From contig NZ_PVYX01000001.1 of assembly GCF_003001695.1 (NCBI RefSeq), positions 310,001 to 374,000 on the forward strand: DNA of 64,000 bases. The letters run 5' to 3'. Both the position numbers and the translations under genes were made by a program. Of the stretch, positions 2,916 through 7,270 are shown one piece after another. This DNA comes from Flagellimonas meridianipacifica (lineage in GTDB: Bacteria > Bacteroidota > Bacteroidia > Flavobacteriales > Flavobacteriaceae). Every line of letters starts with the position of its first letter. The stretch's first letter is position 1. The notes under the pieces were generated by a model. It saw only the letters and a program-made list of their open reading frames with translations. It ran no database searches and was not told where the DNA came from.

Positions 2916-3479
2916 TCAGCTCCTCCTTCCACGGACCCTGCTCAGAGTGCTCTGGGTAATTCCTATAAAACTGGAGATGTACTTCAGAGGATATTTGGCC
3001 ACCCAATTTTTTTCGTTTTCTACCCTGCGGTAACGTTCTACTGCATCATCGCTCTGAAAGGAGATAAGGTTTCTTGACATACTGGCAAAACCCTCCTCAA
3101 CGGTCCTGCGCAATAAAGTATTGTAGGCTGGCAGGGTAGCGGCCAATTTATCGCTCTTGCTTTTTTCAATGGAATAGACCAAACTATCCTCAACAGTTTC
3201 TATCGATACAAGTGCAGGTGTTTGGTTCAGATAACTGTCCATTTCGGTGAATACCTGGCCCTCGGTTGCCATCCAAACGGTGTAATCTTTATCACCCTTT
3301 AAATAATAGAGACGAACCGTTCCCTTTTCGATTAAGAAATACTGGTTACAGAAATGTTTCTGCTTTAAAAGGAACCGGCCTTTTGGCAATGAAAGAAGCG
3401 TCAGGTTTTCATAGATTTTTGAAACGTCTTCATCGGTTCCATCGGATAGTCTAATTATTTCGGTTCTTAGTTGGTTCAT
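2916..3479 (-). CDS. Crp/Fnr family transcriptional regulator
   Basis: A 187-residue cyclic-nucleotide-binding-type regulator. Residues about 25-115 form the beta-roll (LLSLPKGRFLLKQ, NQYFLIEKGTVRLYY, VFTEMDSYL). The long dimerisation helix follows (LPAYNTLLRRTVEEGF), and the C-terminus holds a short helix-turn-helix, YISSFIGITQSTLSRVR. The Arg/Glu pair needed for cAMP contact is not obvious, as is common in Bacteroidota members, so a different or no ligand is likely. It is the first gene of the unit with the SRPBCC and DUF1905 genes and probably controls them. It is transcribed away from the mobilisation region. Confidence 0.88.
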   Translation of the reverse strand: MNQLRTEIIRLSDGTDEDVSKIYENLTLLSLPKGRFLLKQKHFCNQYFLIEKGTVRLYYLKGDKDYTVWMATEGQVFTEMDSYLNQTPALVSIETVEDSLVYSIEKSKSDKLAATLPAYNTLLRRTVEEGFASMSRNLISFQSDDAVERYRRVENEKNWVAKYPLKYISSFIGITQSTLSRVRGRRS

Positions 3480-3666
3480 TGTTCAGGATTGAACAGTAAT
3501 TTATAAATTATTTACGAGTTCCAAATAAGGGCCGTTTTAAAGGACAACATTATGAATTCAATATGCCCCAAAGGTATAAGTCCCATTCTTGGTCTTTTTT
3601 AATAATATCGGTAATTGACCTTTTATGGGAGACTTTACAGATTGAAAATAACCGACTTAAATGAGG

Positions 3667-3760
3667 CCCAAATCTTACCAGGATTTACCTGCGCCGGATC
3701 CTGTTTGATTTTTGTAGTGTTCGGGAAGATAAGCGTAAACCAAAAATCAAGTAGGGCGCA
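3667..3760 (+). other. oriT-like element, left copy
   Basis: This 94-base segment recurs in inverted orientation at 5563-5656. In order it shows CCCAAATCTTACC (3667-3679), a TGCGC box, GGATCCTG (3696-3703), a 10-base stem TTGATTTTTG (3705-3714) with its perfect partner CAAAAATCAA (3741-3750), a 26-base loop containing GATAAGCGT, and AGGGCGCA (3753-3760). ATCCTG is the known nick-site hexamer of IncP/MOBP-type relaxases, and the neighbouring gene encodes an HxHxH relaxase, so an origin of transfer is the best reading. Cleavage itself is inferred. Confidence 0.55.
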
Positions 3761-3953
3761 TTTACTTATGCCCTTTTGAAGTCGTGATTTTTCATTGGAC
3801 TGATTATTTTCTTTTCTTAAAACTGTACTGTTTCCCTCTTTCCTTTGGGATTCTTTTAAAAGGATTCCTTTTCCTTAGTTAAAAACAGGGTACTTTTTAT
3901 CCCTTTTTGACTTTGCTGCTACTTTGAAGTTGGGTGGCAATTCAAGATGTGTC

Positions 3954-3967
3954 ATTGTCATGACAAT
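3954..3967. promoter_or_regulatory. perfect 14-bp palindrome ATTGTCATGACAAT
   Basis: A perfect dyad 40 bases before the preferred ATG (4008) of the MobC-like gene. The position suits an operator or accessory-protein binding site that autoregulates the mobilisation operon. Function is inferred. Confidence 0.4.
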
Positions 3968-4007
3968 CTTGCTTTTTCTCCCGCTGGTCGCAAAAGAAAA
4001 ATGGGAA

Positions 4008-4304
4008 ATGAAAAGGGAACATATTCAATTTAGATGTAGCATCTATGAGAAGAAAATGCTCAAGCTTAAGGCCAAAAGGGCTGGACTTTCTCTTTCCGAA
4101 TATTGCCGTGGTTCCGCCCTTGGTCATAGCATCATCGAACGCCTGACCCCAGAACAATTGGAACATTATTCCATGCTGGTGAAATACAAGAACAATTTCA
4201 AACGGATAAGCAATATGTTCAAAAAAAGAGATCCAAGGCTTGCCAAGGAAGTTAAGGAATTAGCTATTCAGATAAGGAACCACCTTTACAACTTCAATAG
4301 ATGA
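4008..4304 (+). CDS. MobC-like mobilisation accessory protein
   Basis: With the ATG at 4008 the product has 98 residues, begins MKREHIQFRCSIYEKKML and has the ribbon-helix-helix look of relaxosome accessory proteins (strand IQFRCSI, helix YEKKMLKLKAKRAG, turn LSLSEYCRGSALG). It is basic and ends in a helical tail. The frame is open upstream to 3924, but that part would encode a hydrophobic stretch (VIVMTILLFLPLV) foreign to the family, so the later start is chosen. The stop overlaps the relaxase ATG by four bases. The role is to bind the origin of transfer and recruit or position the relaxase; this is known for the family and inferred here. Confidence 0.8.
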   Translation: MKREHIQFRCSIYEKKMLKLKAKRAGLSLSEYCRGSALGHSIIERLTPEQLEHYSMLVKYKNNFKRISNMFKKRDPRLAKEVKELAIQIRNHLYNFNR

Positions 4305-5170
4305 TAGGGAAGGGAAAATCCATATCACATACCAGGGCATCCATCTCCTATGGATGGAACCAGGAGAAGGATGCAGAAATCATTCATAGTCAACATTTGG
4401 CCGGGGAGAACCCTAAGGAGATTACGGAAGAATTTAAAATCGTTCAATCACAGAACCCACGAACCCAGAAGAACACACTGAGCTTCGTGCTGAGCCCCAG
4501 TATCGAGGATGGTAAGCGTCTATCAAAACAGAAACTAAGTAATCTTACCAAAAAGTTCATCAAGGCCATGGGGCTAAAGGAAAGGCAGGCCATAGCATTT
4601 GTACATCGGGACAAGGAACATACCCATATCCATTTATACGTCAACCGTATAGGGTTTGACGGAAAAGCATACAAGGACAGCTTCATCGGAAAGAGGAGCC
4701 AGCAAATGGCCCATGAGGTGGCAAAGGAAATGGGATTGACCACTGCAAGGGATGTCCAACACCAAAGACTTGACAAAGTCAAACAGATAAGGAACGAAAT
4801 AAAGCGGGTACATGAAGAAGTGATGCGATCGGAAAGACCGAAAAGTCTTGATGCCTATATCAAGTCAATGGAAGAAAATGGTATCAAAGTAATCCCCAGT
4901 ATCAACAGGCAACAGAAACTTCAGGGATTTCGGTTTCAGTACAAGGGACAAAACCTTAAGGGAAGCGAAGTACATCGTTCCATGTCGGCAGGAAGAATAG
5001 TCGCCCAAATCTCAGACACCACCAACAAGGTAATTAATAAGTCAAAAGTACCAACAGCAAAGTTGGCGGGAAAAACAATCGAATTGGGCACTAATATCGC
5101 AATGGCCTTGGCAAAAAGGTTCGCGAAGAAAGCCATTAAAAGAGCCATTGACCAGGGCATCGGAATTTAA
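4301..5170 (+). CDS. relaxase / mobilisation nuclease (MOBP type)
   Basis: A 289-residue relaxase-domain protein. Y17 in the N-terminal motif (ASISYGWN) is the likely nucleophile. The metal-binding three-histidine motif is H107-T-H109-I-H111 followed by LYVNRIG, as in VirD2/MobA-like enzymes of Bacteroidota mobilisable elements. The C-terminal third (from about residue 150) is basic and helical and probably contacts DNA or the coupling protein. It nicks one strand at oriT and pilots it into a recipient using another element's mating apparatus. At 289 residues it is a short relaxase without helicase or primase domains. It is translationally coupled to the MobC-like gene (ATGA). Confidence 0.9.
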   Translation: MIGKGKSISHTRASISYGWNQEKDAEIIHSQHLAGENPKEITEEFKIVQSQNPRTQKNTLSFVLSPSIEDGKRLSKQKLSNLTKKFIKAMGLKERQAIAFVHRDKEHTHIHLYVNRIGFDGKAYKDSFIGKRSQQMAHEVAKEMGLTTARDVQHQRLDKVKQIRNEIKRVHEEVMRSERPKSLDAYIKSMEENGIKVIPSINRQQKLQGFRFQYKGQNLKGSEVHRSMSAGRIVAQISDTTNKVINKSKVPTAKLAGKTIELGTNIAMALAKRFAKKAIKRAIDQGIGI

Positions 5171-5182
5171 AAATAAAGGACA

Positions 5183-5560
5183 ATGAAAAAACTGGATGAC
5201 ATTATGGAACTGCTGACTGACGAAATCAACGGGTTCCAGAATTCAATCAAAAAATTGGAAGGCCTATCCAAAGGTCTAAATGAGGTAAAAGTGGATACTT
5301 CCAAGTTGGAATATCTCCTAAAAGAACACCTTAGGCACCAGGAAAGGGTTCAGTCACAGAATATGAAAACATTAAACCATATCGATAAGAAACTGAAACG
5401 GACCAAGCTCATTCCCAAATGGTTGTTGGTGCTCTTTCTATCCGTGCTAATTATACTGAGCATGACAATTGGATATTTGAGTCTTCAAGTGGTTCAATCA
5501 AACAAAAAGGAAAAAGCTCTCGCAATGAAAGAAAGAGTGGAACTTCAAAATCAACAGTAG
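5183..5560 (+). CDS. mobilisation-module membrane/coiled-coil protein
   Basis: A 125-residue protein beginning MKKLDDIMELLTDEING, 12 bases after the relaxase stop. Residues 1-70 are predicted to form helices or coiled coil (DDIMELLTDEINGFQNSIKK, LRHQERVQSQNMK), residues about 80-102 form one membrane span (WLLVLFLSVLIILSMTIGYLS), and a charged tail follows. Proteins of this shape often close Bacteroidota mob operons; the role may be to bring the relaxosome to the membrane or coupling protein, which is inference. The gene ends directly at the right oriT-like copy. Confidence 0.75.
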   Translation: MKKLDDIMELLTDEINGFQNSIKKLEGLSKGLNEVKVDTSKLEYLLKEHLRHQERVQSQNMKTLNHIDKKLKRTKLIPKWLLVLFLSVLIILSMTIGYLSLQVVQSNKKEKALAMKERVELQNQQ

Positions 5561-5562
5561 GT

Positions 5563-5656
5563 TGCGCCCTTTTCCGATTTTACTTCACGCTTATCCCTCG
5601 AAACGCTATAAAATCGGAACAGGATCCATGCGCAAAGTTTAGGGGTAAGATTTGGG
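5563..5656 (-). other. oriT-like element, right (inverted) copy
   Basis: Read on the minus strand this segment aligns over all 94 bases with 3667-3760. The ends CCCAAATCTTACC and AGGGCGCA and the core GGATCCTG are identical, and the loop matches at 18 of 26 positions including GATAAGCGT. The stem is a different sequence but still perfectly paired (TTCCGATTTTA with TAAAATCGGAA), so pairing is conserved although the bases changed. It lies between the stop of the mob operon (5560) and the integrase stop (5666). It may be a second origin of transfer or a replication/termination site; a terminal repeat is also possible. Confidence 0.55.
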
Positions 5657-5665
5657 AACAATTGT

Positions 5666-6868
5666 TTAAAAGTTGACTACCTTATCGAGGGCCTCATCAG
5701 CATCTTTTTTCATGAAACTTGCTTGGTAAGCAACTGTTGTGGTTATTGAAGAATGTCGATAAAGTTTCTGTAACATCTGAATGGGTATTTTATCGCCCGA
5801 AATGTTTCCAAAAGTGTGTCTCGCAATATGCATGCTCAACCTTTTATCAATACCTACAGTTAACGCGACAAGCTGCAATCTTCTATTTAAAGTTCTAGTA
5901 ACTGTTCTTGTTCTAACCAACAACTCCCGCTTATCGGATAAGTCTGTTCCATATAGGTAAGGAAAAACCAAATCCGATTTGGAATCATGTTTATACGAAT
6001 CTAAAATCACCTGTGCTTTTAAAGGAATTTTTAAAGACACTAGTTTTTGGTTCTTGTTCATACGGTACAACAACCTTCCATCTTTAAAATCTGACCATTT
6101 CAAAAGCAATACATCACTCACTCTTATTCCCGCAAAATAAAAACTGATAAGCCAAACATTCAATGCTGCCTGTTGAGCATCCGTCAATCCTTTCGCATTT
6201 TCCAAAATCTTCACTTCCTCTTTCGAAAGACCTATTTTCTCGGATTCAGGTATCCGAATTTGGATTTTACTTTTTCCAAAAGGATAGTGTTTCCTTTCAA
6301 CAATGGATTCTGAGATAGCGAGATTGAAAATCTTCCTTATCAGAATCATATAATTTGCAGCAGTTCTAGGTCTTCTAAGTTCCTGGTGGAGAATAAAGCT
6401 TTCAAAGTTTTTTAAAAGAAAAACAGTGATTTCCTCGAAATAGAGTTTTTCCTTCCCAACAAAACTCATGAATTTGGATACTCTTCCTTTTTGGGTTTGA
6501 TATTGTCTTAGCTTATCAGCATTTTTTAGGTTTTCAAGATGAAGCTTCGCAACTTCAAAAAAATCCAATTTATCTGTACCAATAATATCTTGCTTAATAT
6601 TTGATGCTGTTGAGTGTCCATTCTGGATCTCTATAGCTATCATACTATTATTGGCCTCTGACAGTTTGTTTAAAATAAGACTATTTAGCATTATGGAATT
6701 CGGGTGAGATTTTTTCACCCTTTTATTCTTCTCATCCCAATATTTCTCATCAATATATTGTCCAATAAAAAGATAACTTGCCTTACGGTTCTTTGTAATT
6801 CTTATTGCTATGGGATACTTATTTTGTTTGTTAGGTTTCTTTCTAAGAACGACCTGTACGCTTGACAT
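5666..6868 (-). CDS. tyrosine-type site-specific integrase
   Basis: A 400-residue Bacteroidota integrase. Residues 1-90 form the arm-binding domain (IAIRITKNRKASYLFIG, KYWDEKNKRVKKSHPN). Residues about 100-200 form the SAM-like core-binding domain, and 210-400 the catalytic domain. R249 (AGIRVSDVL), H347-x-x-R350 (MHIARHTFG), H372 and the nucleophile Y381 (TTTVAYQAS) are all present, so the enzyme looks intact. It sits at the island's right end, reads inward, and its start lies about 160 bases from a tRNA-Met 3' fragment, the usual layout for an integrase that targets that tRNA gene. Confidence 0.93.
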   Translation of the reverse strand: MSSVQVVLRKKPNKQNKYPIAIRITKNRKASYLFIGQYIDEKYWDEKNKRVKKSHPNSIMLNSLILNKLSEANNSMIAIEIQNGHSTASNIKQDIIGTDKLDFFEVAKLHLENLKNADKLRQYQTQKGRVSKFMSFVGKEKLYFEEITVFLLKNFESFILHQELRRPRTAANYMILIRKIFNLAISESIVERKHYPFGKSKIQIRIPESEKIGLSKEEVKILENAKGLTDAQQAALNVWLISFYFAGIRVSDVLLLKWSDFKDGRLLYRMNKNQKLVSLKIPLKAQVILDSYKHDSKSDLVFPYLYGTDLSDKRELLVRTRTVTRTLNRRLQLVALTVGIDKRLSMHIARHTFGNISGDKIPIQMLQKLYRHSSITTTVAYQASFMKKDADEALDKVVNF

Positions 6869-6888
6869 ATCAATATACTTTTATACAA

Positions 6889-6924
6889 GGTACAAAATTA
6901 TGGGTACAACATAGGTACAACATA
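6889..6924. repeat. direct repeats GGTACAA upstream of the integrase
   Basis: GGTACAA occurs at 6889, 6903 and 6914; the last two are extended to GGTACAACATA. They lie just upstream of the integrase start, between it and the attachment site. They are candidates for integrase arm-binding sites or for autoregulation. AT-rich DNA (about 6925-7025) follows. Confidence 0.4.
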
Positions 6925-7027
6925 TTATGATATTAAATGCACTTTTTTGATTTCAAAAAATATATATTAATCTTTAATTAATTGATTTTCAGTAATATTA
7001 ATTTAAAATAAGATTTTAACGTAAATT

Positions 7028-7070
7028 CTCATAACCCGAAGGTCGCTGGTTCGAGTCCAGTCCCCGCTAC
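7028..7070 (+). other. attachment site: 3' fragment of initiator tRNA-Met
   Basis: The segment CTCATAACCC is the anticodon loop (CAT) plus the 3' side of the anticodon stem of an initiator-type tRNA-Met. It is followed by a variable loop, a T arm with the GGTTCGAGTCC core and the acceptor 3' strand CCCCGCTA. No D arm or 5' acceptor strand precedes it; instead there is AT-rich DNA. It is therefore the displaced tRNA end left at the distal junction of an integrated element, and it still carries the tRNA terminator downstream. The intact tRNA should lie at the other junction, which I do not find in the window. Confidence 0.8.
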
Positions 7071-7080
7071 TAAAAAAGAA

Positions 7081-7110
7081 AGGCTTCACGAAAATGTGAA
7101 GCCTTTTTTA
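7081..7110 (+). terminator. rho-independent terminator of the tRNA-Met
   Basis: Perfect 9-bp stem AGGCTTCAC (7081-7089) with GTGAAGCCT (7096-7104), six-base loop and a following T-run on the plus strand. Confidence 0.85.
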
Positions 7111-7270
7111 TTTTAGCTGGATGCAACAGCCTGCTATTTTATGGTTCCATTTCAGACGAGTTCATTCGATATACCCCTTACTGATATTTAATAATTTTAG
7201 ACGCTACGGCTCAATAAACCTACTAACAAACCCTGTTTCAGGCGGACTTTTTGTTTTAAGGGATTCGAGC

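Follow-up and report, generated by a model that had tools for sequence, protein, structure and literature searches.

The window, the whole 64,000-nucleotide stretch of Flagellimonas meridianipacifica DNA that was analysed, contains three mobilisation genes in a row on the forward strand. The first (4008..4304) encodes an MbpA/NikA-like accessory protein (PF21983, E 2.4e-20; NF041418 MbpA, 125 bits against a cut-off of 90), for which we propose the ATG at 4008 as the start, the one given by the ORF tool being the TTG at 3924. The second (4301..5170) encodes an MbpB-like HUH relaxase (PF03432, E 6e-31) that scores 101.6 bits with NF041420, under its cut-off of 400, and the third (5183..5560), in the position of mbpC, encodes a DUF6730 protein (PF20503, E 2.7e-27). 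These genes stand between two 94-nt hairpin elements, here called arms. The left arm (3667..3760, reverse strand) is inverted relative to the mob genes and has its outer terminus, CCCAAATCTTACC, at 3667; the right arm (5563..5656, forward strand) starts 2 nt past the DUF6730 stop codon and has the outer terminus GGTAAGATTTGGG. A tyrosine recombinase gene (5666..6868, reverse strand; PF17293, PF13102 and PF00589), which is that of the island described below, has its stop codon about 10 nt outside the right arm.

The gene set resembles the MbpABC system of Bacteroides plasmids, where an mbpA-like gene, a PF03432 relaxase gene and a third small gene follow each other in the same order and mbpA is preceded by an inverted repeat whose flank is CTTTTCTCG-like. 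It differs from that system in its relaxase, which scores far under the MbpB cut-off, in its location on a chromosomal tRNA island and in its arms, which are absent from the plasmid stretches searched.

Evidence for the island comes from a 45-nt copy of the 3' end of tRNA-Met at 7028..7072 (forward strand), which we assign as attR. The other att copy (G000:C1:296122-296166) overlaps the 3' end of an intact tRNA-Met; the genome has the 31-nt tRNA-Met 3' end at two places, C1:296135 and position 7041 of the window, and the repeat extends to 45 nt. Since this repeat is found at both ends, the module and the integrase form the right end of an island of 20.9 kb, which has the site-specific recombinase and the direct att repeats expected of a tRNA island. 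The island has a relaxase, and TraJ, the sole conjugation gene sought, had no match in the whole genome. The segment 3667-5656 is likely to be the mobilisation module (oriT, mbpA, mbpB and the DUF6730 gene) of an integrative mobilisable element of 20.9 kb at tRNA-Met. A smaller element of 3.3 kb was also considered and rejected, as the flank of the far arm and the region upstream of the integrase gave only matches of 10-11 nt and no att-like repeat.

The first-pass annotation had described the arms as two inverted oriT-like elements, and their extent and inverted arrangement are confirmed. Both contain the same 13 outer bases, GGATCCTG(TT), GATAAGCGT and the same last 8 bases, and ATCCTG is intact in both. 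Their end-to-end alignment, in which gaps are needed, scores 48, compared with a mean of -68.8 (sd 13.2, maximum -11; z 8.8) in 2000 dinucleotide shuffles, and on this measure the two arms are homologous. The stems differ in sequence and each, as read from the letters, pairs perfectly; in the family consensus an outer TGCGC/GCGCA stem, besides the stem annotated earlier, closes the hairpin. Folded as single-stranded DNA, each arm on either strand is moderately better than its shuffles (z -1.9 to -2.9). The head of each arm faces the mob genes, and two inverted structured elements indeed bracket the operon.

We followed the arms through 83 loci, namely the best 80 of 197 relaxase relatives from named genomes, the window and two further copies from its own genome, a set picked by closeness. 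The covariance model was built from 39 arms out of these loci and one other locus; with it, cmsearch gives the window arms 96.3 bits (left, E 2.7e-20) and 104.4 bits (right, E 2.8e-22), each of them being itself a seed of the model. A right arm 3' of the DUF6730 gene is present in 82 of the 83 loci, with a weak match of 41 bits at L026, while at L039 the contig ends first. An inverted left arm was found by the model in 17 loci. A relaxed pattern detected no left arm in the other 66, of which 63 are assessable and three (L022, L038 and L092) have too little upstream sequence. A family-wide search with 1.5-kb flanks added 27 relaxase loci, 14 with a strong arm and 13 without a strong one. In the relaxase tree the two-arm rows fall within one half and right-arm-only members are nested among them; the tree labels three own-genome duplicates, L141 and L144 as having none, and L141 and L144 do carry arms, for which reason its change counts were set aside.

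Within the genus, arms were detected at E 0.001 in at least 61 of 71 genomes, with 1-10 copies each. A class-wide search found them in the own genome only (1 of 395), scoring 10 candidates per genome, a depth that is uninformative on absence elsewhere, and one arm used as query had no match in plasmid and phage collections. For the hairpin, no Rfam family rose above its cut-off in the window stretch and five loci. There were two sub-threshold matches in the window region; one of them, mir-202 over the right arm (E 0.01, 25.1 bits vs a cut-off of 51), was taken as chance.

The differing but perfectly paired stems had been read as a sign of selection for structure, and covariation across relatives backs this claim. 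Alignment A5 comprises 70 distinct same-genus arms in 71 rows, two rows being identical to a seed arm of the model over the first 80 nt, and was fitted to the model, which somewhat favours the structure; in it 97.2% of the pair cells are paired (shuffles, 86.2%) and both sides differ in 134 cells (shuffles, 36.6). Among the five measures, the count of further pair types did not exceed that in shuffles (19 vs 19.9), and some of the stem changes may represent whole stems swapped between elements. The covariation of the family is the best evidence we have, at the level of sequence, that the arm structure is under selection.

ATCCTG is the nic hexamer consensus of MOBP oriTs, and the arms had been taken for oriTs of the window relaxase. 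Across the family, 87 of 158 distinct arms have an intact hexamer and 150 of 158 have the flanking AGGnnCC, so that a conserved nic hexamer is not a property of the arms as a family; the loop octamer CGCTTATC is also incomplete, being present in 115 of 158.

Another candidate for the cognate oriT lies between the arms, at 3943..3983 on the forward strand, upstream of mbpA. It is composed of an inverted repeat at 3943-3971 (CAAGAT-G-TGTCAT-TGTC-ATGACA-ATCTTG; CAAGATGTGTCATTGTCATGACAATCTTG) followed by the flank CTTTTTCTCCCG at 3972-3983. This pattern was found in 79 of the 83 loci, having been missed in L022, L042, L068 and L092, and it occurs in two main stem versions, both of which pair. Plasmids of Myroides, Tenacibaculum and Bacteroides have similar repeats, recognised by eye and by folding, at the corresponding position; stretches of those three plasmids, two of them whole records, contained no arm at E up to 1. 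An oriT is expected to show an inverted repeat and a conserved flank next to the accessory gene and to persist throughout the family, and judged on this pattern 3943-3983 is a better candidate than the arms. It is most likely that the relaxase nicks in this repeat, and both the position and the nicked strand are predicted from it.

The partners of the arm give a second line of evidence. Within the genus, 74 fetched arm rows were classified, L188 (MobB) and L196 (contig end) being left out; L192 and L218 are the same arm, which leaves 73 distinct arms, in a set that overlaps the 83 loci (L259 is apparently L013). MbpB-type genes adjoin 27 of these arms, and the MobB family, here DUF5712 (PF18976/NF041495) with BfmA (NF041200), adjoins 34; one further arm has a third type, two have displaced or decayed mob genes and nine have none. 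Whether the arms always flank this relaxase family had been put forward earlier as a check; these numbers show that they do not, and the 34 arms beside MobB/DUF5712 rule out that they are exclusive partners of the MbpB type. In this same-genus set, 24 of the 25 right arms of MbpB loci begin 3-15 nt past the DUF6730 stop, and 32 of the 34 MobB arms begin 14-17 nt past the MobB stop. The arm lies 2.9 kb beyond MobB, past an insertion, at L228 and L229, and 3.8 kb from MobB at L249; at L205 it adjoins a bfmA gene without MobB. L228, L229 and L249 each have an insertion between the MobB gene and the arm, with a short copy of the MobB 3' end before the arm. Among the first 30 arms, with 1.5-kb flanks and a MobB query added, 18 had MobB, seven had MbpB, one had a bfmA remnant and four had nothing; of these four, L196 is at a contig end, L206 and L207 have MobB further away and L200 is truly without. 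L233 (8863-11170) has two arms that are direct instead of inverted; 2.2 kb separates them, and each is preceded by a DUF6730 gene or its remnant.

Ten arms matched neither MbpB nor MobB. One of them (L260) lies behind a PF03432 relaxase of 770 aa that has a NikA-like partner. For the other nine (L225, L242, L243, L245, L261, L265, L266, L268 and L273) the fetched sequence, which extends at least 6 kb per side and was the range of the MobB search, matched neither MbpB nor MobB, and there was no PF03432 match within 60 kb on the contig. Four of the eight whole genomes that hold these nine arms contain no PF03432 relaxase.

In MobB elements a different motif, AGCRAGAGGRT with a hairpin, is located upstream of bfmA, and it also occurs in a Flavobacterium plasmid. 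We take the MbpB- and MobB-type motifs to be the putative nicked sites. The two motifs have 47 and 16 occurrences in the whole 858 kb scanned. The nearest motif was sought for 63 arms: 59 have it on the head side, two (L244 and L262, both MbpB loci, L262 also with the expected inner motif) have it on the tail side, and two (L249 and L260) lack it. All nine relaxase-less arms keep the MobB-type motif, 71-286 nt inside the arm. Apparent minimal islands were observed at L242, L265 and L273, made up of an integrase, an arm and an inverted MobB-type oriT motif and followed by host-like genes.

The view that the arms are nevertheless true nick sites of the MbpB relaxase, each element having two inverted oriTs, is unlikely, though several points favour it: GGATCCTG is next to the hairpin in both window arms, the arms are near mob genes or an oriT motif, and a circular element would work with either orientation. 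Against this stand the incomplete hexamer and octamer, the use of the arm by a different relaxase family, the genomes in which arms persist with no PF03432 relaxase, the plasmid relatives without an arm near their mob genes and the other conserved repeat that occupies the expected place of the oriT. A MOBP oriT should have one cognate relaxase family, and the arms accompany two PF03432 kinds, PF18976 and relaxase-less islands. Single-arm relatives and arms without a relaxase nearby had been named in the first-pass annotation as results that would speak against it; 66 of the 83 loci (63 assessable) have no left arm and nine of the 73 distinct arms have no relaxase nearby. What stands of that reading is the structure, the bracketing and the head orientation; the sharing among relaxases, the partial conservation of ATCCTG and the alternative repeat upstream of mbpA speak against the arms as oriTs of this relaxase.

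The arm does not depend on the relaxase of its island and occurs where no relaxase was detected, as would be the case if it mimicked the oriT of a resident conjugative element, whose helper relaxase would mobilise the islands in trans. Such mimicry is reported for staphylococcal plasmids (PMC8136818). We find it improbable here, for CTnDOT-type TraJ is present in 5 of 71 genomes of the genus vs at least 61 of 71 for the arms, and no arm was detected (best E 1.7) in 260 kb around TraJ in three of these five genomes, which represent the CTnDOT-type ICE only. In one TraJ region the relaxase ORF belongs to PF03432.

The arms also coincide with borders of homology. Many pairs of related modules among the matches listed align from CCCAAATC to GATTTGGG and no further, their flanks being unrelated; examples are L052 with L070 (84%, 3392-5455 only) and L023 with L025. 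There are exceptions: the window, L010 and L013 share an extra 90-135 nt on the left, partly dispersed repeat, the right flank is shared between L024 and L025 and between L013 and L014, and the flanks on either side are common to L020 and L021, as expected of orthologous sites. The dispersed short repeat (3579-3630 in the window, with GTCCCATT...ATGGGA ends) lies left of the left arm in the window, L010 and L013. A query stretch that includes it had matches in 26 of 60 genomes of the genus, mostly over 3579-3630, and being dispersed in the genus it was ruled out as part of the arm.

Integrases adjoin the borders in several loci. In 16 of the 83 loci a tyrosine recombinase gene stops 3-26 nt beyond an arm (right arm in 11, left arm in five), always with its 3' end towards the arm. 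Window positions 5562-7113 align to L025 3462-1903 reversed, which means that the module occurs in opposite orientations beside related integrases. Of 29 other loci with the same integrase type, only L169 has an arm (L167 and L182 have almost no downstream sequence), and the integrase and the module are therefore separable. In L047 the loop and tail types of the left and right arms are exchanged relative to other two-arm elements, as if the genes had been inverted between the arms.

Sharp ends of this kind are expected of HUH transposons, and a mob cassette that transposes, either through the HUH relaxase or through the tyrosine recombinase next to it, might have the arms as its ends. The stop of module homology at the arm termini, the identity of 87% over 2.08 kb between the window and L010, within one genome, and the presence of the module in either orientation beside related integrases would agree with this. 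We doubt it strongly, however: single-arm members are common, the left arm being absent in the 63 assessable loci, other relaxases are bordered by arms too, no target duplication was seen by eye in 16 flank pairs and no empty site was found, the left homology continues past the arm in the window, L010 and L013, and ordinary recombination between repeated arms accounts for the shuffling and inversion.

The arms are probably not the transfer start site and more like a helper signal common to many such islands. We are inclined to suggest, though with somewhat less than even confidence, that the module is nicked at 3943-3983 and that the arms are a separate, relaxase-independent element of the sso/ssi kind, on a tRNA-Met island. 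The arm would be a single-strand hairpin that accompanies the oriTs of Flavobacteriaceae islands and starts second-strand synthesis on the single strand once it has been transferred. Of the two, the right arm, just behind the mob operon, would be the common copy and the left arm an extra, inverted copy for the opposite strand, and the arms would border exchangeable mobilisation cassettes. As with sso and ssi sites, the arms are a conserved single-strand hairpin independent of the initiator protein. A second-strand origin would suit a hairpin that different relaxases have in common, that relaxase-less islands keep along with an oriT motif and that sits directly behind the relaxase operon.

An sso works on a single strand, yet sole arms point either way with respect to the oriT motif, inverted in L242, L265 and L273 and direct in L225, L243, L245, L261, L266 and L268; this is the main difficulty for the second-strand origin and weakens it. 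The intact ATCCTG of both window arms also counts against it, as does the lack of an Rfam match above cut-off. The arm is not generally required, because the 13 of 27 further relaxase relatives mentioned above show no strong arm in their 1.5-kb flanks and the plasmid relatives are without one. RSF1010 has two inverted hairpin initiation sites, ssiA and ssiB, one per strand; the arm pair is similar in its inverted hairpins, whereas the RSF1010 sites form a plasmid replication origin with its own primase.

A parallel in layout is sso1 of ICEBs1, which consists of stem-loops immediately downstream of the relaxase gene nicK that are similar to plasmid ssos (PMC4595007). The arm is likewise stem-loop DNA just 3' of a relaxase gene, a likeness of layout. 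In ICEBs1, sso1 has three stem-loops whereas the arm has one main hairpin, and the arms differ from sso1 in having two inverted copies in some elements and in occurring in both orientations as sole copy.

SGI1 has, beside its oriT and mob genes, an extra structured element to which the arm can be compared, the small mobilisation RNA sgm-sRNA; the RNA is shown to be needed in SGI1 (PMC9299015), whose mob proteins, unlike those of the window, are of the tyrosine-recombinase type. That the arm acts as RNA, be it a 3' end processed from the mob transcript or a small RNA of the SGI1 sort, is very improbable: the hairpin covaries right behind the mob stop codons and right arms are in sense orientation, but left arms run antisense to that transcript, no mob gene precedes the arms of L242, L265 and L273 and the sequence after the hairpin has no U-run.

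Should the arm prove to be a second-strand origin, it would be a candidate member of a class of elements for which we found no description in Bacteroidota, and second-strand synthesis after conjugation would become testable in this phylum. The literature covered (titles and beginnings of abstracts, from full-text sources, with subscription journals, including the older Bacteroides oriT papers, mostly outside) contained no description of the element. More speculative still is the wider proposal that the hairpin may be a second cis signal of island mobilisation in Flavobacteriaceae, kept across relaxases and in islands that have shrunk to integrase, oriT and hairpin, and sometimes doubled in inverted form for conversion of both strands and for inversion or exchange of cassettes between integrases. 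The hairpin can also serve as a searchable marker for mobilisable islands, including those without a relaxase.

The genome of the window has two further copies of the module. In the second (L010:8034-8186) the right arm is about 150 nt from the 3' end of a tRNA-Arg, with no integrase between. The third (L011:7759-11540) has the right arm only; two reverse transcriptases (PF00078) that may form a defence system come next.
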